A stretch of DNA of 25,354 bases from Pseudomonadota bacterium. GTDB taxonomy: Bacteria > Pseudomonadota > Alphaproteobacteria > Micropepsales > Micropepsaceae. This document shows, in pieces, positions 1-22,202 of this stretch. Position 1 is the stretch's first letter. Each line of letters opens with the position of its first letter. A program made the translations under genes and the position numbers. The stretch lies in contig JAKAVI010000205.1 of assembly GCA_021817355.1 (NCBI GenBank), forward strand, positions 1 through 25,354. The letters run 5' to 3'. Under the pieces are notes generated by a model. The model was not told the origin of the DNA and made no database searches. It saw only the letters and a program-made list of their open reading frames with translations.

Positions 1-933
1 CAGATAGCTCGAAGCCCGCACGACCTCCTGAAAACGGGTAACAATCGTGGCGTCTTCTTCGAACACGACCGGCGGCAGAGCTTGGGGCCAGCGGTCTGCG
101 CCGAACTGCACATGGTAGCCACGTTCGGCAATCATGGGGACGCGGTGACCCAGCCCCTCAAGCAGGGGACGTGACGCCACACCCGCCGCAACAATGACCT
201 GATCGGCATCAAGATGACGTCCACTGGCCAGTTCAACCCGCACCCGTCCTGCCTCCCGTGCTAGGCGCGCCGCCCGGGCGCGGATCGTCACGCCACCAGC
301 GGCGACAAACGCTGCGCGCGCAGCGTCGACAAAAAGATCGAGATCTGAGATCTGACCGCTGCCAATGCACCTGATGGCGCCGGCAACTGGTTTGACCGTC
401 AGCATGCGCAGCTGGGTGTACTCCTCGGCGGTGGCCTCACGAAAATAGGCGGTGCCACAATCGGCCTCGAGCCAATTGCGCCGCCCGCGGGCGGCCGCAA
501 CGGGATGGCTCCAGACAATGAAATGCCCCTCAGTACGTAAGAGCCCTGGCCGCCCCAGCTGCACCGCATAGCGCTGCCAAGCAGGCATCGCCAGCGCCAG
601 CAGATCGCGCAAGGCCCTCTTGCCCAAAGCCAGACGATCTGGCCGGGCGGCGGCAAGAAAGCGCAACGAGAACGGCAGCCATTGTGGCAGCGCCCACACC
701 GGCAAGGACAGTCCGCCATGCGCCGACAAAAGGCGTCGCGGCACTCCTTTGAGCGTCGCAAGCGACGCCAACGGGACAATCTGCTCAACCGCTATGTGCC
801 CTGCATTGCCCCAGGACGCCGGCTTTTGTGTTTCACACGGATCAATCAGCGAAACCGAAAAGCCTGCCATTTGCAGGCTTTGGGCGATTGCCGTTCCCAC
901 CGCGCCGCCACCGACCACTACCGAGCAGGGCAT
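1..933 (-). CDS. FAD-dependent oxidoreductase (probable D-hydroxyproline dehydrogenase), 3' end cut by window
   Basis: The minus strand is open from an ATG at 933 to the window edge (311 codons), so the C-terminus is missing. The N-terminus has a dinucleotide-binding fold with GxGxxG (VVVGGGAVGTAIAQSL, G8, G10, G13), followed by ASWGNAG, which is typical of DadA-like D-amino-acid dehydrogenases (DAO family). In bacterial hydroxyproline catabolism such an enzyme oxidises cis-4-hydroxy-D-proline to pyrroline-4-hydroxy-2-carboxylate, the substrate of the divergently encoded deaminase. The substrate is inferred from context; family membership is clear. An ATG at 950 is out of frame, so 933 is the supported start. 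The gene shares a 72-bp divergent promoter region with the deaminase gene. Alternatives are a D-proline or other D-amino-acid dehydrogenase. Confidence 0.85.
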   Translation of the reverse strand, partial: MPCSVVVGGGAVGTAIAQSLQMAGFSVSLIDPCETQKPASWGNAGHIAVEQIVPLASLATLKGVPRRLLSAHGGLSLPVWALPQWLPFSLRFLAAARPDRLALGKRALRDLLALAMPAWQRYAVQLGRPGLLRTEGHFIVWSHPVAAARGRRNWLEADCGTAYFREATAEEYTQLRMLTVKPVAGAIRCIGSGQISDLDLFVDAARAAFVAAGGVTIRARAARLAREAGRVRVELASGRHLDADQVIVAAGVASRPLLEGLGHRVPMIAERGYHVQFGADRWPQALPPVVFEEDATIVTRFQEVVRASSYL

Positions 934-951
934 GGTATTCCCAAATTCATG

Positions 952-979
952 TTGACCGAGCTATCGTATATCGTATACT
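952..979 (+). promoter_or_regulatory. sigma70-type promoter of the hydroxyproline operon
   Basis: TTGACC (952-957) and TATACT (974-979) are separated by 16 bp, which predicts a transcript start near 986 and a short leader before the ATG at 1006. The candidate GntR operator overlaps the spacer and -10, a layout that fits repression. On the opposite strand the same AT-rich block could supply a -10 for the flavoprotein gene. This is assigned by eye. Confidence 0.55.
964..978. promoter_or_regulatory. candidate operator for the GntR/FCD regulator
   Basis: Two exact tandem copies of TCGTATA (964-970 and 971-977) generate a 13-bp inverted repeat, GTATA-TCG-TATAC (966-978). It lies in the middle of the 72-bp divergent intergenic region and overlaps the plus-strand -10. 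GntR/FCD regulators bind short AT-rich dyads of this size, and one is encoded in the adjacent operon. Binding by that protein is inferred. Confidence 0.5.
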
Positions 980-1005
980 TTTGGTCAATGCAATGGAGAT
1001 TTGAC

Positions 1006-1926
1006 ATGGCGCCGAAACTCAGCTGGACCGGTGTATATCCGGCAGCCACCACCCAATTTGATGCCTCCCTTGCCGTCGACCTTGCGGCGACCCGCAGAGG
1101 GCTAGAGGCCCTACACAAGGATGGCGTCAACGGGCTAATTCTGCTGGGCACCTGCGGAGAAAACAATTCGCTCGAACCCGACGAGAAGCGCGCGGTACTG
1201 CAGACCGCCTGCAATGCGGTCGGGGACAAGCTCCCTCTTGTTGCCGGCGTTTCGGAACTGACTACGCCGCGGGCGGTAAGTTACGCACAGGACGCCGAAA
1301 AGATAGGCGTTTCCGGCCTCATGCTGCTGCCGGCAATGGTCTATGTGCCCTCCGAGGAAGAACTCTTCGAACACTTCCGTCAGGTCGCCGAGTCCACCTC
1401 CCTGCCAATCATGCTTTACAATAATCCGCCGGCTTACCGCGTTGGCATCAGCCTGTCGCTTCTCGAGAAGTTGGCGCACATACCCAATATCGTCGCAGTC
1501 AAGGAAAGTGCGCCGGACACCCGCCGCATCACCGACATCATCAATGCATTCGGTGAGCGCTTTACTGTTATGGCCGGACTGGATGACGTCTCCCTTGAAG
1601 CGATGGTGCTCGGTGCCAAAGGGTGGGTTTCGGGATTGACGAGTGCGTTTCCCCAGGAATCGGTCGCCTTGATGGCGGCTCTGGCAGCTGGCAAATTTGA
1701 AGACGCCCGTCGCATCTATCGCTGGTTCATGCCGCTGCTTCATCTGGACGCCGAGCATGATCTTGTTCAGTCGATCAAGCTCGCCGAACAGATCATGGGG
1801 CGCGGTAGTGAACGCGTACGCATGCCACGTCGCCCGCTGACAGGTGCCCGGCGCGCCGCGGTGACCGCAATGGTCGAAAAGGCTGCCAAAACCCGCCCCA
1901 GCACGTCCTTCAGCAACGCCGCGTAG
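1006..1926 (+). CDS. DapA-family lyase, probable pyrroline-4-hydroxy-2-carboxylate deaminase
   Basis: A 306-residue class I aldolase-type TIM barrel. The DHDPS/NAL family signatures are GTCGE (48-52, where DapA has GTTGE), a catalytic tyrosine in MLYNNPP (Y138) and the Schiff-base lysine in IVAVKES (K166). In hydroxyproline pathways this family converts pyrroline-4-hydroxy-2-carboxylate to alpha-ketoglutarate semialdehyde and ammonia. The assignment rests on its neighbours, the epimerase and the flavoprotein. The frame is open back to 682, but ATG 1006 is chosen because GGAG (995-998) lies 7 nt upstream, the family starts here and the promoter ends just before it. The Sinorhizobium homologue is called hypD, a name not used here because of the hydrogenase hypD in the same window. 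A dihydrodipicolinate synthase proper is less likely. Confidence 0.85.
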   Translation: MAPKLSWTGVYPAATTQFDASLAVDLAATRRGLEALHKDGVNGLILLGTCGENNSLEPDEKRAVLQTACNAVGDKLPLVAGVSELTTPRAVSYAQDAEKIGVSGLMLLPAMVYVPSEEELFEHFRQVAESTSLPIMLYNNPPAYRVGISLSLLEKLAHIPNIVAVKESAPDTRRITDIINAFGERFTVMAGLDDVSLEAMVLGAKGWVSGLTSAFPQESVALMAALAAGKFEDARRIYRWFMPLLHLDAEHDLVQSIKLAEQIMGRGSERVRMPRRPLTGARRAAVTAMVEKAAKTRPSTSFSNAA

Positions 1927-1932
1927 ATCTTA

Positions 1933-2931
1933 ATGCGTAGCACCTTCTTCTGCATCGATGGTCACACGGCGGGCAATCCGGTTCGCCTCGTGGTTGGCGG
2001 CGCCCCGCTCCTGCGCGGTGCCAGCATGGGCGAACGGCGACAGGATTTCCTGGAACGCTTTGACTGGATCCGCAATGGGCTGTGTTTCGAACCGCGCGGC
2101 CACGACATGATGTCAGGAGGTTTTCTTTATCCCCCAACCAGAAGCGATACCGATATCGGCATACTGTTCATCGAGACCAGTGGCTGCCTGCCCATGTGCG
2201 GTCATGGTACCATCGGTATGGTCACCTTCGGCCTCGAACATGGCCTCATCGTTCCGCGCAAGGAGGGCCAGCTGAAAATCGAGGTACCGGCCGGTTTGAT
2301 CGACATCGAATACGCCCTCACCGCCGCCAAGGTCGATTGGGTGCGGATCCGCAATGTTCCTGCCTATGTGGCAGCAACCGACATCCAGATTGACGTGCCT
2401 GATTTTGGCGTCCTGAATGTTGATGTATCCTATGGGGGAAATTACTATGCCATCGTCGAACCACAGGGCCCCTATACCGGCCTTGACGATCTAGGCGCAG
2501 AGCGGATCAAGGAGCTGAGCCGCAAGGTGCGCAGGCAGGTTCAGAAAATGTTTGAGCCGGTGCATCCGCTGGACGAACGCATTCGTGGCGTCAGCCATGT
2601 GCTGTGGGCGGACCGGCCGCGCGGCGAAGGTGCAGATGGCCGTAATGCCGTCTTCTACGGCAATGGCGCCATTGATCGTAGCCCCTGTGGCACCGGTACC
2701 TCGGCGCGCCTCGCCCATCTGGTTTCCAAGGGGCGACTGAAGAAGGGTGACAGCTTTGTTCACGAAAGCTACATTGGCAGTCGATTTATCGGTCGCGTTG
2801 AGGATTTGACCGAGCTGGGCGGCAAGCCCGCTATCATCCCGTCGATTCAGGGAACCGCATATACCACGGGCTTCAATACCATCTGGATTGACCCCAATGA
2901 GCCCTTCCCCCAAGGTTTTTCGGTAGTGTGA
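1933..2931 (+). CDS. 4-hydroxyproline 2-epimerase (proline racemase family)
   Basis: A 332-residue protein with the complete proline-racemase active site: C89 in MCGHGTIG and C252 in DRSPCGTGTSAR, with the ligand-binding D248. Two cysteines indicate a racemase or epimerase; the related trans-3-hydroxyproline dehydratases have threonine at the first position. With the flanking oxidase and deaminase genes, the expected reaction is trans-4-hydroxy-L-proline to cis-4-hydroxy-D-proline, in the cytoplasm. The equivalent is lhpA in Pseudomonas. It starts 6 bp after the deaminase stop and lies 6 bp before the GntR gene, so it sits in one operon. Proline racemase is the alternative; pathway context favours hydroxyproline. 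Confidence 0.9.
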   Translation: MRSTFFCIDGHTAGNPVRLVVGGAPLLRGASMGERRQDFLERFDWIRNGLCFEPRGHDMMSGGFLYPPTRSDTDIGILFIETSGCLPMCGHGTIGMVTFGLEHGLIVPRKEGQLKIEVPAGLIDIEYALTAAKVDWVRIRNVPAYVAATDIQIDVPDFGVLNVDVSYGGNYYAIVEPQGPYTGLDDLGAERIKELSRKVRRQVQKMFEPVHPLDERIRGVSHVLWADRPRGEGADGRNAVFYGNGAIDRSPCGTGTSARLAHLVSKGRLKKGDSFVHESYIGSRFIGRVEDLTELGGKPAIIPSIQGTAYTTGFNTIWIDPNEPFPQGFSVV

Positions 2932-2937
2932 GCAGCC

Positions 2938-3606
2938 ATGAGCCTTACGATCCGCACCGTGCCTGACCAGCTTGCGGACGTAGTACGCGAACGCATTCTC
3001 GCGGGAGCGCTTCAGCCCGGCTATCCGATCCGCCAGGACGCACTTGCAGCCGAACTCGGTGTCAGCAAGATCCCGCTGCGTGAGGCGCTGGCGCGTCTGG
3101 AGCAGGCAGGACTCCTCACGCTCATACCCAATCGTGGCTTTGTGGTCCGACCCATGAGTCGCAGCGAACTCGATGAGATTTATGCTCTGCGGCTCAAGCT
3201 TGAACCAGACGCCGTTGCCCTAGGCGCCAAATGCGCGACCGAGGCCGAGCGCGAACGCGCCATTACCGCGCTGGCAACATTCAAGCGCGAGGCGGCGGAC
3301 CGTCGTTGTAGCGGCGGTATCCATAACCGGGCCCTGCATCTGGCGCTGATCCGCCCGAGCGGTCAGAACCTGACCAGCAATATCCTGGAACAGCTCCACG
3401 TCATGGCTGACCGCTATGTGTGCAAGCATCTCGAGCCTCTGGGGCGTAACGCCCGGGCCGATCGCGAGCATGACGAGCTCGTTGAAGCCTGGCTGGCGCG
3501 GGATGCGGCGCGCGTCAAGCAGTTGATGCGCCGGCATATTGCCGGCACGCTGAAGGATCTGCACGAACAGCTCGCAGCCCCGACACCGGCTAAAAGCGGC
3601 GGATAG
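2938..3606 (+). CDS. GntR-family transcriptional regulator, FCD subfamily
   Basis: A 222-residue regulator. The N-terminal winged helix (about residues 8-73) contains the recognition-helix region LAAELGVSKIPLREALARLEQAGLL and the wing PNRGFVVRPM. The C-terminal all-helical FCD ligand domain follows, with the metal-site-like NRALHLALI and later EHDELVEAW and MRRHI histidines. It lies within the hydroxyproline operon, 6 bp after the epimerase stop, and most likely controls that operon and the divergent flavoprotein in response to hydroxyproline or a pathway intermediate. The effector is unknown. The ATG has only a weak ribosome-binding site, consistent with translation coupled to the upstream gene. 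Confidence 0.9.
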   Translation: MSLTIRTVPDQLADVVRERILAGALQPGYPIRQDALAAELGVSKIPLREALARLEQAGLLTLIPNRGFVVRPMSRSELDEIYALRLKLEPDAVALGAKCATEAERERAITALATFKREAADRRCSGGIHNRALHLALIRPSGQNLTSNILEQLHVMADRYVCKHLEPLGRNARADREHDELVEAWLARDAARVKQLMRRHIAGTLKDLHEQLAAPTPAKSGG

Positions 3607-3623
3607 CATCAAAGGAGACGACA

Positions 3624-4823
3624 ATGACGCATGGTATTGGTGGCTCCAGCGCAGCTGCCGAACTTGCCGGCCTTGGACCTTGGCCCAATCCAGCGCCAGC
3701 CATTGGCGGCGACGAATATCTGGCGCGCATCGAAAAAGCCCGTAGCTTGATGGCAAGACTCGGAGCTGAAGCCCTAATGATCGGGACTGGAGCCAGCCTG
3801 AACTATTTTGCCGGCGTGCCGTGGGCTGTGAGCGAGCGGCTGGTCTGCATGCTCCTGCACCGTCACAAAGATCCCATCCTGGTCGCCCCCACCTTCGAAC
3901 TCGGCTCGCTGATGGCAAGCCTTGCCATCGATGCGCGCGTTCGCAGCTGGGAGGAGGACGAAAGCCCCTACGCACTCGTCGCGGACTGGCTCAGGGAAAC
4001 CTCTGTCCACCGTCTCGCGCTTGATCCTGCCCTGTCCTTTGAGATTGTGAGCCATCTGGCCGAGACAGCGCCCAGCGTCGACACCGTCAATGCCCGTAGC
4101 ATCATTAATGGTTGCCGCAGCATAAAATCCGCAGCGGAACTTACGCTGATGCAGCAAGCCAAGGCAATGACCCTGGAAGTGCAACGCCGGGCAGCCCGCA
4201 TCATGCGCCCTGGCATCACCACCACCGAAGTCCGCCGGTTCATTGAAGCGGGGCATCGCGCCCTCGGTGCAGACGGCAACAGCTTCTGCAGTGTTCTGTT
4301 CGGACGTGCCACCGCCTATCCACACGGCCTGCCCGGAGAAATGCGGCTCATTGAAGACGATGTGGTCCTGATCGACACGGGCTGCCTTGTACGCGGCTAT
4401 ACCTCGGACATCACCCGCACCTATGTTTTTGGCACACCTTCAGCCCGACACCGCGAAATCTGGCAGATCGAGCATGACGCCCAGGCCGCAGCCTTTGCAG
4501 CGGTACGCCCGGGCGTTGCGTGCGAGTTCATCGATGCAACCGCGCGCGCGGTTCTGACCAAGGCGGGACTGGGGCCGGACTACCGCCTGCCGGGACTGCC
4601 CCATCGCACCGGCCACGGCATCGGACTCTCTATTCACGAGGCCCCCTTTCTGGTGCGCGGCGATGCTACAAGGCTTGCGCCCGGGATGTGCTTTTCCAAC
4701 GAGCCGATGATCGTGGTTCCCGACGCGTTCGGCATCCGCCTCGAGGACCACTTCCATGTCACCGAGACCGGGGCGGCGTGGTTCACCGAGCCCTCACCTT
4801 CGATCGACCGCCCCTTCGGTTAG
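3624..4823 (+). CDS. M24 metallopeptidase (Xaa-Pro aminopeptidase / prolidase type)
   Basis: A 399-residue protein with an N-terminal creatinase-like domain (about 30-165) and a C-terminal pita-bread domain. All five dinuclear metal ligands are present: D251 (LIDTGC), D262 (YTSDITRTY), H331 (GHGIGLSIHE), E360 (SNEPMI) and E374 (IRLEDHFH). It has no signal peptide, so it is cytoplasmic. These enzymes cut X-Pro bonds and often accept hydroxyproline, so here it probably frees (hydroxy)proline from imported peptides to feed the epimerase. AAAGGAGA at 3611-3618 fixes the start. It ends 6 bp from the convergent GH127 stop. The exact split between aminopeptidase and dipeptidase activity cannot be read from the sequence. 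Confidence 0.85.
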   Translation: MTHGIGGSSAAAELAGLGPWPNPAPAIGGDEYLARIEKARSLMARLGAEALMIGTGASLNYFAGVPWAVSERLVCMLLHRHKDPILVAPTFELGSLMASLAIDARVRSWEEDESPYALVADWLRETSVHRLALDPALSFEIVSHLAETAPSVDTVNARSIINGCRSIKSAAELTLMQQAKAMTLEVQRRAARIMRPGITTTEVRRFIEAGHRALGADGNSFCSVLFGRATAYPHGLPGEMRLIEDDVVLIDTGCLVRGYTSDITRTYVFGTPSARHREIWQIEHDAQAAAFAAVRPGVACEFIDATARAVLTKAGLGPDYRLPGLPHRTGHGIGLSIHEAPFLVRGDATRLAPGMCFSNEPMIVVPDAFGIRLEDHFHVTETGAAWFTEPSPSIDRPFG

Positions 4824-4829
4824 ATCTTA

Positions 4830-7205
4830 TCACCCTAGGCGCCTGACAAGGCGCGCGCCGAAGACTGGCCCTGCCCTCATCCTGGCAAAGGGTTCAATCC
4901 TCACGGTGATCGAGGCGCGCTCTGCCGTCAGCTGCGGCGCAATAGGATAGTCGCAGGTAAAGAACCGGCCAGGATGGGCACCCGAAAGGCGCTGCTGGGC
5001 GATCAACAGGCTGTCGACGAAGATCTTGAAGTGGCGATCGCGCTCCTCACCCCAGTAGGTCAGCTCGAGGCTGAGAGGTCCTGGTGCTGCTTTGAGCACA
5101 AACTGCATGAAACCTCCGGCGCGGGCGTCGCGCCCAGTACGTCGGCGATAGACCACGGCATAGGAGTCCTGTGACAACAGACTATGCGCACGCTCCGAGG
5201 TCGCATCGCCTAAGTGAATAATATCGCTCGAACGCGCATCAAGCGCCCTCTGCTGGAGCCGCTCAGCAGCCCGTTCTTCCTGCTCCTTCTGCCAGTTCCA
5301 CGGACTGTAGCGCCGAAAATAGACAGCATTCCTGCGCTCATGCTGGAAGGCAAAAGCGCTGATCTGCAACGGCTCGGTGTGATTTATCGCGACCGCACGA
5401 AACCTGCCGTCTGCCTCCTCACTCACCTTCGCGAGCACATCCTCTGCCACGAAAGCCGGGGTCTGCCCGTGCCATGGCTTTGCCGCCGGCCCCAGATCGG
5501 CTGAGAGTACGAGCGGACCCAGAAGCATGGTGAGCGTGTTGGGATCATCCGCTGTCGGTTCAAGCCGCAAGCTCCGCGGCAGTTCAAGGCTGATCACATC
5601 CCCAACTTGCCAGTGCCGCGTCAGCCGGACATAGCCATCCGCCATCTTTACGCTGTATGCGCGGCCGTTGATCTTCAGCTTTGGGCTTGTGCACCACACC
5701 GGCACCCGCAACCATAGCGTCAGCGCATCTGGCGCCTGGCTCTCGAGGAATTGGATCTCAACATCGTCCGCAAACGGATAGCCTGTCGTCAGCTGAATGC
5801 GAGTCCGCTGCGCCATCCAGGCCAGCGTCGAGGGAATGTATAGATTGACATAGAGATTATTGGCTTTACGCCAATAGATCGATTCGCCATGCTTGGCATG
5901 GCTCTCCATACCGGTTCCGACGCAACACCAAAAATCATCAAACGGCGTTGAATAGTGCCGGTAACTGCCGGCCATCAGCGGCGTCATATAGGCAAACATG
6001 CCGGTTTGCGGATTTTGCTGCGCTAGAATGTGATTGAGGTGGGTGCGTTCAAAAAAATCAAAATAGTCAGCACGTGGCGCGCGGGCATAAAGATGGCGCG
6101 TGAGCTTCAGCATATTGTAGCTTGAGCAAGTCTCACAGGTCTGATCGGTAATGTGCGTCGAAATCGTCATCGGCGCCTGGAAGTATTCCCGATCACCATT
6201 GCCGCCGATCACATAGCTGTAACGCCCGACCACATCCTGCCAGAAGAACGCCGACGCAACTCCATAGTCGGGCTCGCGGCTGATCTCATAGAGTCGCGCA
6301 AGGCCCACAAGCTTTGGGATGTTGGTGTTGGCGTGTTTATAGGCGAGGTCATCGCGACGCCGCGTTAAGGGATCAAGGACCTTGTCATCATAGATGGTTT
6401 CGGCCAGACGCAGCCACCGGGTGCGGCCAGTACGGGCATAGAGCTCTGCGAATGACTCGTTGAGCCCGCCATATTCGCAGACCAGAACTTCCTGGACCTG
6501 CTGGTGGTTGAGAGGAGCAAAGACCTGGCTGAAATAGCCTGCCAGCTTTTCAGCGACTGCCAACGCCCTCTTTGCGTGACAGTAGCGGTCCGCATCGAGC
6601 AGGCCCGCAAACAGCTTGTGAATCGTATAGAGCGGTGACCACGCACCATTCAGAGAGAATGGAGTCGCATCAATCCGTCCCGCCCGGACTTCTTCGAACA
6701 CCACTCTGCCTGGATCGATGCGTCCATCCTTTTTGCGCCAAAGCCCGCCGACATAGCCATCGGCATATCTCGCCTGACACAGGATCAGCTCCCCAACGAT
6801 ATACTCTACCCTGCGCCGACACTCTTCGTCGCCGGTTTGTGCATGCATGTGGGAACAGGCACTGAGATAGTGACCGAGCGTGTGCCCCGCAATACTCTCG
6901 CTCTCCCAGCCACCATAGACAGCACCTTTGGGCGGAAGGCCTGCCTGGGCCCGAAAATTGTGAAGCAGCCTGTCGGGTTCCAGACGGTGCAGGTAGGAGA
7001 GATTTGCCTGCATGGCACTGTAATAGGGCGAAGGCAGCAGACGCACTGCCTCAAGCGGGAAGCTTTCGAGCTTGGGTGGTGTCGGGACCTCAGATTGCGT
7101 CTGAGCAAAGACCGGTTGCCCCGCACCAGCAACACCAAGAGCCACAGGCGCCGTACCCAGAAGCAAGGCGCGACGGGACACATAGCCGGCGGCTTTGTGC
7201 GACAT
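4830..7205 (-). CDS. GH127 beta-L-arabinofuranosidase, Tat-exported
   Basis: A 791-residue glycoside hydrolase of family 127 (former DUF1680). The N-terminus is a twin-arginine signal: SRRALLLG (10-17), a hydrophobic stretch, then a VFA-QT cleavage site near 34. The active site matches Bifidobacterium HypBA1. E340 in GGNGDREYF is the likely acid/base. The zinc-cysteine centre is E358 and C360 in TCETCSSYNMLK, with C427-C428 in DDFWCCVGTGME, C427 being the probable nucleophile. An alpha/alpha-barrel is followed by beta domains and a C-terminal domain of about 120 residues. HypBA1 cleaves arabinose-beta-1,2-arabinose linked to hydroxyproline, which matches the convergent hydroxyproline cluster. 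ATG 7205 is preferred over the in-frame TTG 7208 because AGAGGG lies 8 nt upstream of it. Confidence 0.88.
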   Translation of the reverse strand: MSHKAAGYVSRRALLLGTAPVALGVAGAGQPVFAQTQSEVPTPPKLESFPLEAVRLLPSPYYSAMQANLSYLHRLEPDRLLHNFRAQAGLPPKGAVYGGWESESIAGHTLGHYLSACSHMHAQTGDEECRRRVEYIVGELILCQARYADGYVGGLWRKKDGRIDPGRVVFEEVRAGRIDATPFSLNGAWSPLYTIHKLFAGLLDADRYCHAKRALAVAEKLAGYFSQVFAPLNHQQVQEVLVCEYGGLNESFAELYARTGRTRWLRLAETIYDDKVLDPLTRRRDDLAYKHANTNIPKLVGLARLYEISREPDYGVASAFFWQDVVGRYSYVIGGNGDREYFQAPMTISTHITDQTCETCSSYNMLKLTRHLYARAPRADYFDFFERTHLNHILAQQNPQTGMFAYMTPLMAGSYRHYSTPFDDFWCCVGTGMESHAKHGESIYWRKANNLYVNLYIPSTLAWMAQRTRIQLTTGYPFADDVEIQFLESQAPDALTLWLRVPVWCTSPKLKINGRAYSVKMADGYVRLTRHWQVGDVISLELPRSLRLEPTADDPNTLTMLLGPLVLSADLGPAAKPWHGQTPAFVAEDVLAKVSEEADGRFRAVAINHTEPLQISAFAFQHERRNAVYFRRYSPWNWQKEQEERAAERLQQRALDARSSDIIHLGDATSERAHSLLSQDSYAVVYRRRTGRDARAGGFMQFVLKAAPGPLSLELTYWGEERDRHFKIFVDSLLIAQQRLSGAHPGRFFTCDYPIAPQLTAERASITVRIEPFARMRAGPVFGARLVRRLG

Positions 7206-7384
7206 CAAACCGACCCTCTATTTGACACTGTAGGGGAACAGCCGCAGGTGAGTACGTCAACCACAGTCACGATTTTGTGCTGACACCTGCCGCTGCCTAC
7301 GAACCGCGCCTCGAGGCGTTTGCCAGCAAAGAGCCCGTTGGGTCGAAGACATGCCACTGCCCTGGTTCCTTAAAGGTTTAGGCT

Positions 7385-7672
7385 TCAAGGTGTTTGGACT
7401 CCGGGGCCCTGGCTGAAGACCAGGCCCCTCTCCGGATCATTGGCCACATCGATACCGAGCGCAAAGAGTTTTCCGTCATCGGGCGGCAGTAATACGGCGA
7501 GGCGACAAACCAGTGTTGTCTTGCCAGCTCAATCCGGTCCAACGAGGGTAGAAAGTACCCCGCGCGAGACGCTGAAGGATATTGCGTCCAGTGCCAGGAC
7601 CGGCGGTCCACATTCCCGATGCAGCGGTTTGGTAAGAACTTGTGGGCGCACGGCCACCGCCACCCGGCTCAT
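7385..7672 (-). pseudogene. ABC transporter ATP-binding protein, N-terminal remnant with stop in Walker A
   Basis: Starting at ATG 7672, whose ATGA overlaps the hlyD stop, the frame reads an ABC ATPase N-terminus: VLALDAISFSVSRGVLSTLVGPD, then a TGA (7531-7529), then AGKTTLVCRLAVLLPPDDGKLFALGIDVANDPE. The TGA stands where the Walker A motif GPDGAGKTTL needs glycine, so a GGA-to-TGA change is the simplest explanation. After about 95 codons the similarity stops and the frame ends at 7385. Signature, Walker B and H-loop are all absent. The gene therefore carries both a nonsense mutation and a C-terminal truncation. It was originally an ABC-2/YhiH- or YbhF-like drug-export ATPase partnered with the HlyD protein. 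Confidence 0.75.
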
Positions 7673-8517
7673 TGTGGTTTCCGTGCCAGCGGGAGGATGA
7701 CAGTCGCCGGCATGCCCAGACGCAAATCGTCTTGCGGATCCTTCACAAAGACACGAACCTCATAGACTAGGCTTGTACGCAATTGCGCCGTTTCCACCGA
7801 TTTAGGCGTGAATTCGGCTACCGGCGAGATATAACCGACCCAGCCGGCAAAGCGATGTCCAGGCAGACCGTCGACTTCCACCCATGCCTTCTGCCCTGGA
7901 TGGATCAAAGGCAGATCCACTTCATCGGCATAGACCCGCACCCATTTAGGATTGGTAATCGCAAGCGAGAGCACTGGAGTTTGTGGTGAGGCCATATCCC
8001 CCGGCTCCAGCAGACGGGTACGCACAGTCGCCGCGGTTGGCGCAATCAGAACGGCGTCCGCAAGCTGTGCCTTGAGCAGTTTTAGTTGAGCGGCATCGGC
8101 GTCTACCCTCGCCTTGGCAATCGCTTCTGCGGCCCTGGCATTATCGAAATCCTGAGCACTGATGGCATTGCCATGAGAGGCTTTCCACAAACTCACCGCC
8201 CTGCGCCATTGGAGCCTGATATTTGCGGCATTGGCCTTGTCCAGTTTCAACGTTGCGGCTGCAACCTCGACCTGCGGAGCCAGCCGGCTTGTATCCAATC
8301 TCGCGAGCACCTCGCCACGATGGACCCGGTCACCTTCCTGAACAACAATCGACTCAATACGTTGGCTATTGTTGAAAGCGAGATCGATTTCCCGCAGATC
8401 CACGTTCCCATAAAGTGTCAGTGCGTCACGATGGGGCGACCTGGTTATCTGCTGCCAACCAAACCAGACAGCTACACAGAGCGCCGCGACGAGAAGAAGG
8501 ACAGTTGGACGTTTCAT
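7669..8517 (-). CDS. HlyD-family membrane fusion protein (YhiI/YbhG-like)
   Basis: A 282-residue periplasmic adaptor subunit. It has an N-terminal membrane anchor (TVLLLVAALCVAVWFGW, about 5-21) and a first half-lipoyl motif (LYGNVDLREIDLAFNNSQRI). An alpha-helical hairpin follows (about 85-155), then the second half-lipoyl (LIAPTAATVRTRLLEPGD), and a beta-barrel ending LRLGMPATVILPLA. Such proteins join inner-membrane ABC-2 exporters to TolC. Its own ATPase gene, overlapping by 4 nt, is broken and no permease follows, so the pump is probably incomplete. The frame extends to 8577, but ATG 8517 gives a normal start directly before the membrane anchor. FNR/FixK-like boxes lie 55-95 bp upstream. 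Confidence 0.85.
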   Translation of the reverse strand: MKRPTVLLLVAALCVAVWFGWQQITRSPHRDALTLYGNVDLREIDLAFNNSQRIESIVVQEGDRVHRGEVLARLDTSRLAPQVEVAAATLKLDKANAANIRLQWRRAVSLWKASHGNAISAQDFDNARAAEAIAKARVDADAAQLKLLKAQLADAVLIAPTAATVRTRLLEPGDMASPQTPVLSLAITNPKWVRVYADEVDLPLIHPGQKAWVEVDGLPGHRFAGWVGYISPVAEFTPKSVETAQLRTSLVYEVRVFVKDPQDDLRLGMPATVILPLARKPQ

Positions 8518-8543
8518 GTCTGAATGCTGGCCGCTCCAACAGC

Positions 8544-8584
8544 AGGATAGTCGCGCAGCATCCCTGGCTATTGACATGAATCAG
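8544..8584 (-). promoter_or_regulatory. candidate FNR/FixK-type class II promoter of hlyD
   Basis: TTGAC-ATGA-ATCAG (8571-8584) matches 8 of the 10 fixed positions of the FNR/FixK consensus TTGAT-N4-ATCAA. Reading toward hlyD, a -10-like TATCCT (8549-8544) begins 28.5 bp from the dyad centre, as expected for a site centred near -41. The hlyD ATG is at 8517. The match alone is weak; placement is the main support. Confidence 0.45.
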
Positions 8585-9016: not shown

Positions 9017-10384
9017 ATGACACTTGAACTTACATTCCTGGGTGGAGCCGGAACGGTTACCGGCTCCAAATATTTGCTACGGGATAACAATACAAATCTT
9101 CTTGTCGACTGCGGCTTGTTTCAAGGCCGCATGCAGCCGAGACTCAAAAATTGGGCCCGCTTTCCCATACCTCCAACTGACATCGCCGCCGTACTGATAA
9201 CCCATGCCCACATCGATCATTCCGGCTACCTGCCGTTACTTGTACGCCATGGGTTTAGAGGGCCGATTTTCTGCTCTGAAGCGACGGCAGATTTGTGTGG
9301 AATTATGCTTCCCGACGCTGCCCATCTGCAGGAAAGGGATGCCGAATTTGCGAACCACCGCGGCTTCTCGAAGCACAAGCCTGCCTTGCCGCTTTATACC
9401 GTTGATGATGCCCTGCGTGCGCTGACGCTACTGAAGCCGATATCTTTTGATTCAACGTGGCAGGTCACTGGCGGGGCAAGTGTACGGTACCGACGCGCTG
9501 GCCATATCCTGGGTGCCGCATCGCTAGAACTTTCCTGGCATAACCACCGTATTGTGTTTTCCGGCGACATCGGACGCTACGACGACCCACTCCTGCCGGA
9601 TCCCCAGACGCCCGAAAGCACCGATACCCTACTGATCGAATCTACCTATGGTGACCGGCTTCATGGCGACGAGGACATCGGGGCGGAGTTCGCTGCAATC
9701 ATTGCGCAAACCATGGCTCGCGGTGGCACTTTGATCATACCCGCCTTTGCGGTTGGCCGGGCCCAGTTACTTCTCTACCATCTGTGGCGTTTGAAAAGCT
9801 CCGGACAGGTTGCACGCGAACTGCCGATTTATGTGGACAGCCCCATGGCAATCGATGCAAGCGAAATTTTCCAGGCCCATCCAAAGGACCACAAACTGAA
9901 CGATGCAGATACGCGCTCCGTATTTGCACTCGCCCATTATGTCCGCGAGCCGGAAAAATCTAAGGCGCTTACCGCCGACACCTCGCCCAAGATCATCCTC
10001 TCGGCGAGTGGCATGGCAAGTGGTGGTCGCGTTCTGCACCACCTCAAGCATTATGCGCCCGATGCACGCAATGCGATCCTTTTTGCGGGATTTCAGGCCG
10101 CCGGCACCCGCGGCGCAGCACTGATTGCCGGGCGGCAGGAAGTCAAGATATTTGGCGACTATGTGCCGGTAAGAGCTGAAATCCATAATATGCACACCTT
10201 TTCGGCTCACGCGGACCAGAACGAACTGCTGCGCTGGCTTAAAACTATGAAGGCAGCCCCTCGCCAGACCTATATCGTTCACGGTGAGCCCAGTGCTGCT
10301 GATGGACTTCGCCATCGTATTGAAGAAGATCTAGGCTGGAGCTGCACTGTCGCTGAGGAACGCAACACCGTGGCTCTGGCATGA
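9017..10384 (+). CDS. beta-CASP metallo-beta-lactamase ribonuclease (CPSF73/YSH1-like)
   Basis: A 455-residue protein. The metallo-beta-lactamase core has HAHIDH (63-68: H63, H65, D67, H68), a GHILGAAS histidine near 160, and FSGDIGR. A beta-CASP domain follows (about 205-360), and then the RMMBL region with a FSAHAD histidine and YIVHGEP. This is the RNA-processing branch of the fold, related to archaeal and eukaryotic CPSF73 and bacterial RNase-J-like enzymes, and is commonly annotated as an exonuclease. It is cytoplasmic. The stop overlaps the next start by 4 nt (ATGA), so translation is coupled to the phosphorylase. The context suggests it supplies nucleotides from RNA; the substrate itself is not known. 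Confidence 0.85.
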   Translation: MTLELTFLGGAGTVTGSKYLLRDNNTNLLVDCGLFQGRMQPRLKNWARFPIPPTDIAAVLITHAHIDHSGYLPLLVRHGFRGPIFCSEATADLCGIMLPDAAHLQERDAEFANHRGFSKHKPALPLYTVDDALRALTLLKPISFDSTWQVTGGASVRYRRAGHILGAASLELSWHNHRIVFSGDIGRYDDPLLPDPQTPESTDTLLIESTYGDRLHGDEDIGAEFAAIIAQTMARGGTLIIPAFAVGRAQLLLYHLWRLKSSGQVARELPIYVDSPMAIDASEIFQAHPKDHKLNDADTRSVFALAHYVREPEKSKALTADTSPKIILSASGMASGGRVLHHLKHYAPDARNAILFAGFQAAGTRGAALIAGRQEVKIFGDYVPVRAEIHNMHTFSAHADQNELLRWLKTMKAAPRQTYIVHGEPSAADGLRHRIEEDLGWSCTVAEERNTVALA

Positions 10385-11892
10385 ATACGAGCGCAGCCAA
10401 ACATCGACTCAAGGCGCGGCGTCTGGGTCTTGATACCCACGCCGAAGCGGTAATTTTTCTTGATCGGGACAGCCCGGTTTGCCGCGCGGAGGGATTTGCG
10501 GCCCATGGCAGGGTATTGCTGACGGCTAAGGATCGCTTCGTCATAGCCACACTTTACAAAACCATTGGCGGGCTGGTGGCAGCAGGTGAAGCGGCCTTGT
10601 CCGACGCCGCGTGGCAACACCTCGCGCTTCAGGAAGGTGATGGCGTGGAGATCTCCCATCCCGATCCCTTGGCCTCCATGAGCCTCGTACGCGCACGCGT
10701 TTATGGTCACGCTCTGGCTAGCAATTCTTTCGACGCTATTGTCCGTGACATCGCCGAAGGACGCTATTCGAACCTTGAGATTGCTGCCTTTCTGACCGCC
10801 TGCGCCGCCAAGCCACTTTCCGGTGACGAGGTTCTATCATTGACTCGTGCTATGGTGGCTGCAGGTGACCGGCTCGCCTGGGACCGCGATATCGTCGTCG
10901 ACAAGCATTCGGTCGGCGGACTTCCAGGCAATCGTACCACCCCGCTTGTTGTCAGTATCGTGACTGCGCTCGGACTGACCATGCCCAAGACATCCTCGCG
11001 GGCCATTACCTCGCCTGCAGGTACTGCTGATACGATGGAAGTACTGGCGCCAGTCACTCTCGATCCACAAACTATACATCGCGTGGTAGAGCAGGAAGGA
11101 GGGTGCATAGCTTGGGGTGGAGCAGTACGCCTGAGCCCTGCCGATGATATTCTGATCCGGATCGAACGTGCCCTCGACATCGACACCGAGGGCCAGATGA
11201 TCGCCTCGGTTCTCTCCAAGAAAATCGCAGCTGGGGCCACACATCTGGTCCTCGACATGCCAGTAGGTCCAACAGCCAAGGTAAGGTCACAGGCCGCCGC
11301 AGATGCTCTGTCGCGGGGTCTTATCCGCGTAGCGGAGGCGTTCGGCATTAAAGCGCACGTTCTCCTCGGCGATGGAAGCCAGCCGATTGGGCGCGGAATC
11401 GGCCCGGTTCTCGAAGCCCGTGACATCCTCGCCGTGCTCCAGAACGAGGCGAATGCTCCGGAAGATCTGCGACAGCGCGCGGTAGAGCTCGCGGGGGTAC
11501 TGCTTGAACTTTCAGGACGCGCAGGAGTTGGACAAGGATTGGCACTTGCCGCGGCGACACTAGCTGACGGCAGTGCCTGGAACAAATTCCAACGCATATG
11601 CGTTGCCCAAGGCGGCTTGCGCGAACCGAAAATTGCCAGCTACCGCAAGGAAATCCTTGCCCATGTAAGTGGCCGCTTGCGCAGTATCGACAATCGCAAA
11701 CTCTCCAAACTTGCCAAACTCGCCGGCGCCCCCGAGGCAAAGGCCGCCGGGCTTGAACTTCACCACCGGCTTGAGGATGAGGTACGCGCCGGGGAGCCAC
11801 TGTGCACCCTTTATGCCGAGGCACCAGGCGAACTTGCGTATGCCCTGAATTATGCCCAAGCACAGAAAGACATATTCGGAATTGCTGCATGA
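10381..11892 (+). CDS. deoA: type-2 thymidine phosphorylase / AMP phosphorylase family protein
   Basis: A 503-residue protein. It has the extra N-terminal domain of about 85 residues that marks the archaeal AMP phosphorylase branch, followed by the nucleoside phosphorylase core: DKHSVGGLPGNRTTPLVV (about 174-191) and the signature SSRAITSPAGTADTMEVL (205-222). Archaeal relatives split NMPs with phosphate into base and ribose-1,5-bisphosphate, whereas classical DeoA acts on thymidine. Which substrate this bacterial member prefers cannot be decided by eye. It overlaps both neighbours by 4 nt (ATGA at each end), so the trio is one translationally coupled operon. Pairing with an RNase and a PRPP synthetase favours an NMP salvage role. 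Confidence 0.85.
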   Translation: MNTSAAKHRLKARRLGLDTHAEAVIFLDRDSPVCRAEGFAAHGRVLLTAKDRFVIATLYKTIGGLVAAGEAALSDAAWQHLALQEGDGVEISHPDPLASMSLVRARVYGHALASNSFDAIVRDIAEGRYSNLEIAAFLTACAAKPLSGDEVLSLTRAMVAAGDRLAWDRDIVVDKHSVGGLPGNRTTPLVVSIVTALGLTMPKTSSRAITSPAGTADTMEVLAPVTLDPQTIHRVVEQEGGCIAWGGAVRLSPADDILIRIERALDIDTEGQMIASVLSKKIAAGATHLVLDMPVGPTAKVRSQAAADALSRGLIRVAEAFGIKAHVLLGDGSQPIGRGIGPVLEARDILAVLQNEANAPEDLRQRAVELAGVLLELSGRAGVGQGLALAAATLADGSAWNKFQRICVAQGGLREPKIASYRKEILAHVSGRLRSIDNRKLSKLAKLAGAPEAKAAGLELHHRLEDEVRAGEPLCTLYAEAPGELAYALNYAQAQKDIFGIAA

Positions 11893-12779
11893 GCTCTGTC
11901 CTGATCCCGATGCCGGGAAATGAAAAGCTGGCCAATGAACTACAGGCCACATTACACTGTCCGGTCGTGCCGCCACGGCTGCATCGCTTCCCGGATGAAG
12001 AAGTGCGCGTGACGTTGCTTGGTGACTTGGTCGGGCGTAACGTTCACGTCGTGTGCAGTCTTGAACGTCCCGACGATAAAATTCTTCCGATCGTCTTCAT
12101 TGCTGAGCTGGCACGTGAACTCGGGGCAAGACAGGTTGGCCTGATTGCGCCATATCTGGGCTATATGCGTCAAGATATTCGCTTTAACCCTGGTGAAGCC
12201 ATCAGTTCACGACCGTTTGCACGGCTGCTTTCGCAAACTTTCGATTGGCTGTTAACCGTGGATCCGCATCTGCACCGCTACAAATCGCTCTGTGAAATTT
12301 ACTCGATCCGTACCCGCGTTGTGCATGCAGCACCGGCATTGGCACATTGGATTGGCGCCAATGTTCCGGATCCGATACTGATTGGTCCAGATAGTGAAAG
12401 TTCCCAATGGGTAAGCGAGGTCGCCGGAGACTGCGCCGCTCCCTACACGGTGATGCGCAAAGTGCGTCATGGAGATCGTACCGTTGAGGTCTCGTTTGAT
12501 AACGCGGACAAGCTCTCAGGACGAACACCAGTTCTAGTTGACGACATCGTATCCAGCGGTCAAACAATGCTATCGGCAATCAAGGCACTGACTCAGAAAC
12601 CCTCTGCCAAACCTATATGCCTTGCAGTCCATGGCGTCTTTGCAGGTAGATCTTATGAAGAGCTTCTGCATAGTAGGGCACGAATTCTCTCTACAAACAC
12701 GATAAACCATCCATCAAATGCGATCTCTCTGGTACCAGAGATTGCTTCTGCCCTCTTGAGCTTTCAATCTACCCTCTGA
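11889..12779 (+). CDS. prs: divergent ribose-phosphate pyrophosphokinase (PRPP synthetase paralogue)
   Basis: A 296-residue protein, slightly shorter than housekeeping Prs (about 310-315). The recognisable parts are FPDEE (34-38, normally FxDGE), YLGYMRQDIRF (89-99), VDPHLHR (124-130, where housekeeping Prs has VDLHA), a basic flexible loop MRKVRHGDR (189-197) and the PRPP loop LVDDIVSSGQT (216-226). It makes PRPP from ribose-5-phosphate and ATP, or possibly works on a ribose phosphate released by the upstream phosphorylase. The frame runs back to 11802, but the ATG at 11889 overlaps the deoA stop (ATGA). The variant motifs suggest a specialised paralogue, with the housekeeping prs elsewhere. 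Confidence 0.85.
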   Translation: MSSVLIPMPGNEKLANELQATLHCPVVPPRLHRFPDEEVRVTLLGDLVGRNVHVVCSLERPDDKILPIVFIAELARELGARQVGLIAPYLGYMRQDIRFNPGEAISSRPFARLLSQTFDWLLTVDPHLHRYKSLCEIYSIRTRVVHAAPALAHWIGANVPDPILIGPDSESSQWVSEVAGDCAAPYTVMRKVRHGDRTVEVSFDNADKLSGRTPVLVDDIVSSGQTMLSAIKALTQKPSAKPICLAVHGVFAGRSYEELLHSRARILSTNTINHPSNAISLVPEIASALLSFQSTL

Positions 12780-13405: not shown

Positions 13406-14458
13406 TCAGCAAATACGCGGGAGTTGTTCACCGGTGAGCATGTCGAGTATGCGATCCGATCCTAACAGGTTGCGAAGCAGGACGCGGCCATCACCCGCCT
13501 CGACATGACCGATTATGGCAGCATGTTCGCCACCTGGTGCGTGACGCAGGATGGTGAGCGCGCTGGCGGCATCGCCAGCCGGTACTATAGCGATAAAACG
13601 CCCCTCATTGGCGACGTAAAGCGGATCAATTCCGAGTATTTCACAAGCGCCGCGTACAGCCTCGCAAACCGCTATGCTTTCCCCATTGATACGTATGTTG
13701 GCTCTTCCCGCCGCTGCGATTTCGATCAGACTGGTGGCCAGACCACCCCGCGTGGGGTCACGAAGGCAATGAGGTGTAACGCCGGCTGACAAAAGCTGCT
13801 TCACAACTGCCCCAAGTGGCGCGCAGTCACTTTCGATCGCACTTTCGAAGCCAAGTCCTTCACGCACCGACATAATCGCGACGCCGTGCCGGCCGATGTC
13901 ACCGCTCAGCAGAACCGCGTCGCCGGGGCATATATTCTGTGGCGCGCAGCCGGTGCGCGCGAGCACGCTGCCAACGCCCGCGGTGTTGACATAAAGACCG
14001 TCGCCTTTGCCGCGCTCGACCACCTTGGTGTCGCCAGTCACGAGCCTCACACCTGCAATGTGCGCGGCACTCCCTATCGACGCTGCAACCCGGCGAAGAT
14101 CGTCAAGAGGAAAACCCTCCTCGATAACAAAACCTGCGCTCAGGAAAAGCGGTTCGGCGCCGCACATGGCAAGGTCGTTGACCGTGCCATTCACCGCTAG
14201 AGTGCCGATGTCACCGCCAGGAAAGAAAAGTGGCCGCACTACAAAGGAATCTGTCGTAAAGGCGAGTCTTGCCCCGTTAATCTCGACGATCGCACCGTCA
14301 TGCGTGAAGTCCTCTATGTTGGCAGAAAATGCTGGCCGAAAGATGCCATCAACAAGACGATGGGTAAGCAGCCCACCTCCGCCATGGGCGAGTTCGATAG
14401 TGGTCTGCTCGAAGGCCGGCGTGGGACAAGTAAATGCAATGCGCTCACTCATGTTCAC
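13406..14458 (-). CDS. hypE: HypE, carbamoyl dehydratase (hydrogenase cyanide synthesis)
   Basis: A 350-residue protein of the AIR-synthase/ThiL fold with ELAHGGGG (about 23-30), [26 protein letters not shown] and RDPTRGG. It ends in the invariant PRIC, whose terminal cysteine accepts the carbamoyl group from HypF and is dehydrated with ATP to thiocyanate, the source of the Fe-bound cyanides. The ATG overlaps the hypD stop by 4 nt. It is the last gene of the hydrogenase operon. All functional motifs are intact. Confidence 0.95.
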
Positions 14459-15567
14459 TTCCCTATAGCGTCAACGCCATCTGCGAGGCGTCTATAGCGG
14501 TAATAGGCAGCACATGCGCCCTCTGAAGAAACCATTGTGGCACCGAGGGGATGTTCCGGCGTACAGAGGGTACCAAAGGCCGGACAATCATTTGGCTTTA
14601 TCAGCCCGCGCAGGATTTCTCCGCTCGCACAGGGACCGCCCTCGAGCTGCAGGCTCAAACTATATCCAAACCTCGCAAGAGCCGAGAAGTCAGCAAAGGT
14701 GGGCGCGAGCGCCAACCCACTTGCAGCAATCTCACCAATACCCCGCCATCGTTGTGGTACGATCCGAAACACACGCGCGAGCGCCTCTTGCGCAGCACGG
14801 TTACCTTCGCGCCTGACCATGCGGCTATAGGCGTTTTCAACTTCGGCACGTCTCTCCTCAAGCTGCCGCAAACAAAGATAGATCCCTTGCAAAAGATCGA
14901 CCGGCTCGAAGCCGGTGACCACAATGGGCACACCATAGCGCCGCACCAACGGCTCATATTCCCAATAACCCATCACAGTACATACATGACCAGCGGCAAG
15001 AAAGCCCTGCACACGGTTTTCGGGATTGCTCAAAATTGCATCAATTGCCGGAGGCACCAGTACATGAGAAACCAGCAGCGAAAAATTCCCAATGCACTCA
15101 TGCGCCGCTTGCAGCACCGCCATCGCGCTGGCGGGCGCGGTGGTTTCGAACCCAATGGCGAAGAATACTACCTCGCGGGAGGGATTTTGACGGGCGAGCG
15201 CCAGCGCGTCGAGAGGTGAATAGACCATGCGGATATCGGCACCGCGGGCTCTGGCTTCAAGCAAGCTGCCGCGGTTACCCGGTACACGCAGCATGTCACC
15301 AAAGGAACAGAAGATCACATCGGGGCGATGTGCCACCTCGATGGCCGCATCAACAACCTCCACCGAGGTGACACAAACCGGGCAGCCCGGACCGTGTAGT
15401 AAGGTTACATCTACGGGAAGTAGCCGATCAATACCGTAACGTACGATCGAGTGTGTCTGGCCGCCACAGATTTCCATTATCGTCCAGGGCTGGGTGACGA
15501 GGCTCGCGATGCGATCGGCATATCGGCGAACGAGTGCGGCATCCCGGAATTCATCGACGTGCTTCAT
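14455..15567 (-). CDS. hypD: HypD, Fe-S scaffold for Fe(CN)2CO assembly
   Basis: A 370-residue protein with the conserved ICGGQTHS (C34), LHGPGCPVC (C62, C65) and GFETTAP motifs. The C-terminal part contains [28 protein letters not shown] and [10 protein letters not shown], whose cysteines hold the 4Fe-4S cluster. With HypC it forms the platform on which iron receives CO and two cyanides before transfer to the large subunit. It overlaps hypC and hypE by 4 nt each. It should not be confused with the unrelated hydroxyproline-pathway protein also called HypD. Confidence 0.95.
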
Positions 15568-15803
15568 GAAAGCTCCTCCGGCTCGGCCTCGCTGAGATAG
15601 GCAAGGGTCGCAAGCGCTTCGGTTTCGTCGATTACGGCGATGGCAAAGCCAGCATGGACGAGCACATAATCGCCGATGCGCACCCCGGGCACATAAGCAA
15701 GATTAACCTGTTTGACGATCCCGGCAAACGCCACCCGCCCAATGCACATGAGTGGATCTTCGCCTTCGATGCTCAATACCTGACCTGGAATTGCAAGACA
15801 CAT
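15564..15803 (-). CDS. hypC: HypC, hydrogenase assembly chaperone
   Basis: A 79-residue member of the HypC/HupF family starting [12 protein letters not shown]. The cysteine right after the initiator Met (C2) carries the Fe(CN)2CO unit and must be exposed by Met removal. The start is therefore the ATG at 15803 and not the in-frame TTG two codons upstream (15809). That ATG shares one base with the hypF stop (TGATG). It chaperones the large-subunit precursor and pairs with HypD. Confidence 0.95.
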
Positions 15804-18109: not shown

Positions 18110-18375
18110 TCCTTGACCTCGAGATCAGCGCTTCGAATGAGAACTCGTTGGGCTGCAGGATCAAGCAGATCTGCCGATATCTCGACCTCCAAGGTCGCTC
18201 CCTCTGCAAGCGTACCGCGCGCTTCCTCCTCGAAGTGCTCGGCGAAATGATAAGAAGAGAATTGACTCAACGCTCCAATCCACACTCGGGCTCGTGAAAT
18301 ACGTAGCGCATGGCCGGCGCGCGCCACTTCTTCAAGTCGGCGCACCAGGTCTTTAACGATCCCCGTTTCATGCAT
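18106..18375 (-). CDS. hypA: HypA-like nickel chaperone lacking the zinc finger
   Basis: An 89-residue protein with the HypA N-terminus MHETGIVKDLVRRLEE, including H2, the nickel ligand, and E3. The middle aligns with the usual HypA beta strands (ISRARVWIG, FEEEARGTLAEGATLEVE). Ordinary HypA is about 113-118 residues and carries CxxC...CxxC. This protein has no cysteine at all: after LEVEIS it runs through ADLLDPAAQRVL straight to a RSADLEVKE ending that resembles the normal C-terminus. It overlaps the protease gene by 8 nt and hypF by 4 nt. The open frame extends upstream to 18531, but ATG 18375 is required for the MHE motif. Confidence 0.85.
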   Translation of the reverse strand: MHETGIVKDLVRRLEEVARAGHALRISRARVWIGALSQFSSYHFAEHFEEEARGTLAEGATLEVEISADLLDPAAQRVLIRSADLEVKE

Positions 18376-18847
18376 CGATCGGGTCTCCCGCGTCATCCAA
18401 AATACGCAATTCTTCCATAATAAGCCTGACCGCCCTATCTGCGGCGGCAGAAACCTCCGGCGATATGCCTGCCCCGAGCTCAAAGCAAGCCCCTTCGATG
18501 GCGAAGATAACGAGACGACGCGGCAATACATCGAGCGCGCGTGCGAGTTGAATCGCGTCGATCAGACCAAAAGTGTGCGTGGAGGGCGCCAAAAGCGCAC
18601 GTGGTAATGCTTCTTGTAACGCGTCAATACGGTGGACGCAGCCGGGAGCGGAAAACAACGCTGCCGCATCGACGACAAAGACGAAATCAGCGCCGGCCCA
18701 ATCCTCGATCAAGCCGAACGCGTCACCGGTGTGAATAATCGAATGCGCCTTGCCCAAGAGCCTTTCCGCCACTAACGGACCGACCCCATCGTCACCGCGT
18801 TCCGGATTTCCCAGTCCGATCACGAGACACTCGCCCGCAGTCTTCAT
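18368..18847 (-). CDS. [NiFe] hydrogenase maturation endopeptidase (HyaD/HybD/HycI family)
   Basis: A 159-residue peptidase. It has LGNPERGDDGVG with nickel-contact E16, VVDAAA with D60 and STHTFGL with H91, corresponding to the E/D/H nickel ligands of E. coli HybD. It removes the C-terminal tail of the large-subunit precursor once nickel is inserted. Its ATG overlaps the large-subunit stop by 4 nt, which suggests a dedicated partnership. Confidence 0.92.
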   Translation of the reverse strand: MKTAGECLVIGLGNPERGDDGVGPLVAERLLGKAHSIIHTGDAFGLIEDWAGADFVFVVDAAALFSAPGCVHRIDALQEALPRALLAPSTHTFGLIDAIQLARALDVLPRRLVIFAIEGACFELGAGISPEVSAAADRAVRLIMEELRILDDAGDPIDA

Positions 18848-22197: not shown

Positions 22198-22202
22198 TTC
22201 TA

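Follow-up and report, generated by a model that had tools for sequence, protein, structure and literature searches.

A GH146-type glycosidase linked to hydroxyproline catabolism genes in a Micropepsaceae contig: a probable salvage module for plant hydroxyproline-rich glycoproteins

Extensins and arabinogalactan-proteins (AGPs) are hydroxyproline-rich, heavily glycosylated wall polymers, and to our knowledge little is known of how bacteria recover hydroxyproline (Hyp) from them. HypR regulons are known in S. meliloti, other Proteobacteria and Streptomyces, some of them with collagenases and proline dipeptidases (PMC5343134, PMC6608401). On the side of deglycosylation, the Xanthomonas enzyme XeHypBA1 frees arabinose specifically from arabinosyl-hydroxyproline (Ara-Hyp), and its describers ask why a bacterium unable to use arabinose keeps Hyp-arabinosidases (PMC6085000). 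XeHypBA1 is classed in glycoside hydrolase (GH) family 146, and the Bifidobacterium GH146 enzyme Bll4HypBA1 is also active on Ara-Hyp (PMC10850190). Here we describe a stretch of 25,354 nucleotides (the window: positions 1 to 25,354 of contig JAKAVI010000205.1, assembly GCA_021817355.1, from a Pseudomonadota bacterium of the Micropepsaceae), whose first 7,205 positions place a glycosidase gene of this type beside genes for Hyp catabolism. Loci or stretches of relatives are given L-numbers and their genomes G-numbers.

The six genes of this block probably serve, as a compact module, to salvage Hyp from hydroxyproline-rich glycoproteins of plants (or algae). The basis of this model is the gene families, their recurrent linkage and a palindrome common to relatives. 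As we infer its substrate, the order of its steps and the pairing of regulator and operator, the exported GH146 enzyme would remove arabinose from Ara-Hyp in glycopeptides, the peptides would be trimmed and then imported, and the cytoplasmic M24 prolidase would split Xaa-Pro and Xaa-Hyp dipeptides. The epimerase would convert trans-4-Hyp to cis-4-hydroxy-D-proline, the oxidase, dependent on flavin adenine dinucleotide (FAD), would oxidise the latter, and the DapA-family enzyme would deaminate the oxidase product towards alpha-ketoglutarate semialdehyde (KGSA), the GntR protein acting as a HypR-like regulator at a GTATAC-centred palindrome. The initial annotation had proposed such a route from Hyp-arabinosides to Hyp catabolism: the recurring linkage and the operator predicted in relatives speak for it, and it needs amending in that the enzyme is of GH146 type and the GH146 gene of the window has no operator.

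The FAD-dependent oxidase of the DAO family (1..933, minus strand; PF01266, 79 bits), predicted to act on cis-4-hydroxy-D-proline, is truncated at the window start (311 amino acids); in the relative L006 it is full length, with 412 amino acids and 137 bits. It is divergent from the DapA-family gene (1006..1926, plus strand; PF00701, 189.5 bits), and between the two lies the predicted operator TATCGTATATCGTATAC (962..978), kept in L005 and L006. The DapA-family product is predicted to be a delta1-pyrroline-4-hydroxy-2-carboxylate deaminase because its neighbourhood matches the 4-hydroxyproline 2-epimerase (4HypE) pathway of PMC4113996, an eLife paper on proline racemases in which the oxidase-deaminase-epimerase trio is the set assigned to 4-hydroxyproline breakdown. 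The epimerase itself (1933..2931, plus strand) scores 530 bits on the equivalog model NF010578 '4-hydroxyproline epimerase' (cut-off 376), the proline racemase and trans-3-hydroxyproline dehydratase models staying below their own cut-offs, and both cysteine motifs, MCGHG and SPCGTG, are read in its sequence, which bears out its first description as a two-Cys Hyp epimerase. Between the epimerase and M24 genes sits the GntR/FCD regulator (2938..3606, plus strand; PF00392 and PF07729), predicted to be HypR-like, for which no NCBIfam regulator model came above its cut-off. The M24 Xaa-Pro dipeptidase (3624..4823, plus strand; PF00557 and PF01321) has as best solved relatives the 'Proline dipeptidase' entries 5cik/4r60 (500 bits), and inspection by eye showed no signal peptide. 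Convergent with it across a gap of 6 bp (4824-4829) is the GH146-type beta-L-arabinofuranosidase gene (4830..7205, minus strand, ATG at 7205; PF07944/PF20736/PF20620), whose product has a twin-arginine translocation (Tat) signal and a C-terminal DUF6805 and is predicted to release arabinose from Ara-Hyp. All six genes, and the convergent gap, were correctly placed in the initial annotation. Two contigs of other metagenome-assembled genomes (MAGs), L005 and L006, preserve the order and orientation of all six genes, with 82-95% identity.

By the published split between GH127 and GH146 the glycosidase is, judged by its sequence, of GH146 type and not a GH127 enzyme. Among solved structures 5opj, which we take to be BT0349, the founder of GH146, scores highest (419 bits), followed by 8k7x (175 bits); GH127 entries score lower, 4qjy reaching 67 bits and the HypBA1 entries 3wkw/3wre 38 bits, and on these scores orthology with GH127 HypBA1 was rejected. 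The Pfam label of PF07944 is GH127 domain, a domain that the two families have in common. The residues E340, E358, C360, C427 and C428, as well as the twin arginines R11 and R12, are invariant in 12 aligned sequences (query included), and the first five align to the same residues in 5opj; they presumably make up the Zn-Cys/Glu centre and the acid/base glutamate. Of the enzyme's earlier description as a Tat-exported GH127 with an intact Glu/Cys centre, the export signal and the centre are thus retained and the family is replaced, the closest characterised relative being XeHypBA1.

This last assignment depends on L056 of X. euvesicatoria, whose GH146 protein (791 amino acids) is 51% identical to that of the window, stands alone as a DUF1680 match in that genome (E 1e-30), and is encoded downstream of a 528-amino-acid GH43 and of a piece matching the solved beta-L-arabinobiosidase. 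We take L056 as XeHypBA1 because these sizes and neighbours fit those given for XCV2724/2728/2729 (PMC6085000). In a 51-row tree with midpoint root the window gene and XeHypBA1 fall into one group of 37 rows (support 99/96), separate from two groups of paralogs. From this kinship we predict that the window enzyme releases arabinose from Ara-Hyp.

In order to see how often such a glycosidase lies near a Hyp epimerase, the named genome contigs were scanned for GH146 and the 80 best loci were taken out of 580 or more. The epimerase is inside the flanks (up to 10 kb) in 31 of the 80. Forty-six of the 80 genomes were searched whole; the 34 loci left out were mostly further Sphingomonas and Xanthomonas, and 14 of them have the epimerase in the flank. 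Two weak epimerase matches (37% identity) and the second fragment of one G036 gene were dropped before counting. A strong epimerase match is present in 35 of the 46 genomes, with the best GH146 within 20 kb of it in 26 of these, on a different contig in eight and 122 kb apart in one, and none of the 17 other DUF1680 copies of epimerase-bearing genomes is on the epimerase contig. In a sample of 249 Sphingomonadaceae genomes chosen independently of GH146 (cut-off at least 800 bits), 20 carry GH146 and 31 carry the epimerase. Every one of the 20 also has the epimerase, against 11 of the 229 others (Fisher p 5e-22, kinship not corrected). The distance is 2.1-10.7 kb in 18 of the 20, the genes being on different contigs in the other two. 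Ten DUF1680 copies scored below 800 bits, five in epimerase genomes (two in G480) and five in genomes without it, and none lies within 20 kb of an epimerase. The adjacency to Hyp genes, on whose recurrence the initial annotation had made its proposal depend, therefore does recur and is specific to this enzyme type (26/35 and 18/20, against 0/17 and 0/5 for paralogs). It is repeated in different gene orders over several alphaproteobacterial families, as a reshuffled common set which adds DUF885, S9, DUF5695, GH43, Ldh_2, a permease and TonB receptors. Across the class Alphaproteobacteria GH146 is seldom found: at E 1e-150 three of 385 gave a match, among them the centre genome and a copy of 712 bits.

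A 90-kb plasmid of Sphingomonas hankookensis (NZ_CP117028.1; L001, L085) carries GH146, DUF5695, an Ldh family gene, DUF885, TonB receptors, GH2 and Hyp genes, so that the set can sit on plasmids. A plasmid search with the window returned no record containing most of it.

The second line of evidence is the palindrome. Its core hexamer GTATAC, taken from the window site, occurs in the 300 bp preceding dapA in 27 of 33 mapped stretches and in those preceding GH146 in 21, with a background of 0.04 per 310 bp. A position matrix trained solely on 22 dapA sites has the palindrome AATATCGTATACGATATT as consensus and gives the dapA region of the window a score of 18.8. Counting scores of 12 and above, it matches upstream of GH146 in 44 of 80 cases, made up of the window and all fetched loci except L009, which was too short (79 of 80), compared to 1.05% of 8000 first-order shuffles; upstream of dapA it matches in 62 of 65 stretches, overlapping repeats and the 22 training sites included. 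Paralog stretches, some with short upstream DNA, have a site in 1 of 18, and the single match turns out to be the L081 gene, itself a second copy of Xe-type. L039, L064, L066 and L074, in which GH146 is on another contig or 122 kb off, have the site both at GH146 and at dapA (L125-L128). The window thus has the site at dapA and none at GH146, and many relatives have it at both.

Site counts per gene were made on 39 hand-picked loci, divergent neighbours having one site in common. Of the 93 sites scoring at least 18, 88 are upstream of pathway or partner genes, these upstream regions making up at most 15% of the DNA. At a score of at least 15, sites precede dapA (37/39), GH146 (31/39), the oxidase (28/36), the TonB receptor (14/15), DUF5695 (11/20) and S9 (6/12), and more rarely GntR (5/34), DUF885 (4/32), Ldh_2 (3/23), GH43 (2/11), M24 (2/30), the epimerase (2/39) and the permease (1/24); genes that lie within operons would be expected to have few. 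In G001 and G002, which belong to the clade of the window, the second genomic site precedes a trans-3-hydroxyproline dehydratase gene. This position suggests that the regulon may also cover 3-hydroxyproline, and the palindrome there marks Hyp genes independently of GH146. The weaker matches in these genomes, those with one mismatch (one in G001, three in G002) and a single one with two mismatches in G002, do not rise above the reversed-pattern control. From the GH146 operator common to relatives we predict a HypR-like regulon directed at hydroxyproline-rich glycoproteins of plants.

The palindrome could be read by a regulator other than the GntR protein of the locus, in which case the regulon would be real and wired differently. 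The pairing of regulator and palindrome is a prediction, and L031 has a GH146 site with no strong 4HypE match in its genome, an observation which sits poorly with the proposed module as well. We nevertheless consider this explanation unlikely, given that at least 34 of the 39 hand-picked stretches have a gntR match, that in these loci the oxidase and dapA genes flank the site, and that a symmetric palindrome suits a GntR dimer.

Several further observations weigh against the salvage module. The closest solved chains of the epimerase are labelled proline racemase (7pb3, 250 bits; 2azp, 176 bits). The KGSA dehydrogenase was already reported as missing from the window, and none is among its Pfam-scanned genes; leftward, where the initial annotation had pointed for this enzyme and a transporter, the flanks of the two close relatives L005 and L006 hold instead a 3'-5' exonuclease, a SIS/CBS protein, an ABC ATPase and an RpoN-like frame (the last by eye), with no KGSA dehydrogenase or amino-acid transporter among the scanned genes. 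A single aldehyde dehydrogenase query gave no match in 33 mapped stretches, which were hand-picked and partly overlap (L010/L120, L012/L121, L022/L124). G480 has a further Xe-type copy (870 bits) 147 kb from its epimerase, and three Xanthomonas genomes hold the enzyme with no strong epimerase match. Upstream of the window GH146 the best operator score is 2.4, and no operator was found upstream of GH146 in L005, L006, L007, L011, L016, L029, L046, L071 and L075. A search for GH43 gave none in G001, none in G002 and four in G032. G001 and G002, with one DUF1680 gene each and no GH43, may have the longer Hyp-arabinosides (Ara3/Ara4-Hyp) out of reach, and look like users of short Hyp-arabinosides more than like wall degraders.

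Part of this evidence would also fit a GH146 enzyme that serves pectic arabinan, rhamnogalacturonan II or AGP side chains and merely adjoins the Hyp genes in a general plant-wall island. Other GH146 enzymes do act on such material: the substrates of BT0349 are oligosaccharides derived from arabinan, and those of Bll3HypBA1 are AGP/arabinan (PMC10850190). A GH146 gene on a plasmid of Sphingomonas sp. R1 is near a rhamnogalacturonan lyase and an acetylesterase, with no Hyp epimerase annotated within 18 kb, and the window GH146 is without the common operator. However, a general island would not readily account for a linkage specific to the epimerase from which paralogs are excluded, for the operator in 44 of 80 GH146 cases, or for the lack of GH43 in the close relatives G001 and G002, and the nearest characterised enzyme prefers Ara-Hyp (PMC6085000). 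This makes the arabinan or AGP explanation decidedly improbable in our view.

In distinction to both, the Hyp genes might serve collagen or free-peptide hydroxyproline, with GH146 a hitchhiker having no metabolic link to them. The residue trans-3-Hyp, substrate of the dehydratase in the predicted regulon of the window clade, is a collagen residue, and HypR regulons occur with collagenases in Shewanella and Streptomyces (PMC5343134, PMC6608401). A hitchhiker would not be expected to show linkage repeated in different gene orders over several alphaproteobacterial families, nor operators in common even where GH146 is unlinked, and we regard this explanation as very unlikely. Chance or an assembly artefact was rejected, the block being kept in two other MAGs.

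For the salvage module, the target named at first, extensin, may be too narrow, as the DUF5695 partners of relatives have a predicted fold like that of an AGP-rhamnose lyase. DUF5695 is a protein of about 900 amino acids (e.g. L042:7043-9859) whose predicted fold (mean predicted local distance difference test, pLDDT, 71.6) is closest, among the matches listed, to the polysaccharide lyase family PL27 AGP-rhamnose lyase; GH121 was not among the fold matches listed, and a sequence search against solved structures gave no match. On this predicted structure, DUF5695 is a candidate new lyase or hydrolase family, possibly AGP-uncapping.

A wider reading, on which we are evenly divided, is that one palindrome, together with a HypR-like regulator, would constitute a dispersible regulon dedicated to the hydroxyproline-rich glycoproteins of plants in several alphaproteobacterial families. 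Its membership, put forward with the same reserve, would comprise TonB receptors, DUF5695, GH43, GH146 as the last-acting arabinofuranosidase on Ara-Hyp, the DUF885/S9/M24 proline peptidases, the permease and the 4-Hyp and 3-Hyp pathways. Equally balanced in our judgement is the corollary that the prize would be the imino acid, as carbon and nitrogen, and not arabinose, with the window as a stripped-down form of six genes. The loci name partner genes, predict an operator and suggest a hypothesis on the inducer, and give DUF5695 and DUF885 a testable role. They also offer a possible answer to the Xanthomonas puzzle, in that deglycosylation may serve the peptide (PMC6085000).

The remainder of the window contains other genes. 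Beside GH146, positions 7206-7672 hold the remnant of an ABC-exporter ATPase, in which two short stretches match the ATPase of L006 (58% and 42%); L006 has HlyD followed by the ATPase and two permease-like genes, of which the window keeps only HlyD (7669-8577). At 9017-12779 there are in a row a beta-CASP metallo-beta-lactamase, an AMP/thymidine-phosphorylase-like and a phosphoribosyl-pyrophosphate (PRPP)-synthetase-like gene, and by eye similar-looking frames are in the same order at 615-4389 of L006. With 486 bits the phosphorylase falls short of the cut-off (535) of the archaeal AMP phosphorylase model. On the minus strand at 13406-23332 are NiFe-hydrogenase genes with HypA, HypF, HypD and a HypE-like (AIRS) maturation protein.

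In comparison with known systems, the locus resembles the described HypR regulons in its GntR-type regulator, in hypE/hypO/hypD, in proline (di)peptidases and, in some taxa, TonB receptors, as well as in the extension of the regulon to the degradation of a Hyp-containing polymer (PMC5343134, PMC6608401). There the polymer is collagen and the enzyme a collagenase, whereas here the upstream enzyme would be a glycosidase for plant-type Hyp-arabinosides; the main text of PMC5343134 has neither 'arabinofuranosidase' nor 'glycosyl hydrolase'. The 4HypE neighbourhoods of PMC4113996 likewise combine the epimerase with a D-amino acid oxidase and a dihydrodipicolinate synthase homologue, with MLD2/Ldh_2 as delta1-pyrroline-2-carboxylate reductase; a point of difference is that 'glycoside' has no match in the main text of that paper. 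The XeHypBA1/AA/BA2 system of X. euvesicatoria resembles the relatives in having a GH146 from one and the same tree group with a TonB receptor and GH43 nearby, and a prolyl-oligopeptidase-like gene adjoins the X. euvesicatoria GH146 (PMC6085000). Unlike the window, the three Xanthomonas genomes searched have no strong Hyp epimerase match, and the Xanthomonas system has no common operator at GH146. The B. longum HypBA1/HypBA2/HypAA cluster also removes Hyp-linked beta-arabinooligosaccharides, its Bll4HypBA1 (GH146) acting on Araf-beta1-Hyp, and in distinction to the window it is described as supplying arabinose as a carbon source. As far as the descriptions at hand go, we know of no Hyp catabolism as part of that cluster. 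Among the matches listed, the titles and abstract beginnings of the open-licence literature gave no instance of a Hyp epimerase or HypR joined to GH127/GH146, and the Latescibacteria paper, in the portion of its text at hand, predicts the release of arabinose from extensin and does not mention Hyp catabolism (PMC4454575). We judge, therefore, that the logic of the regulon is already known and that its plant-glycoprotein branch with GH146 is probably the new part.

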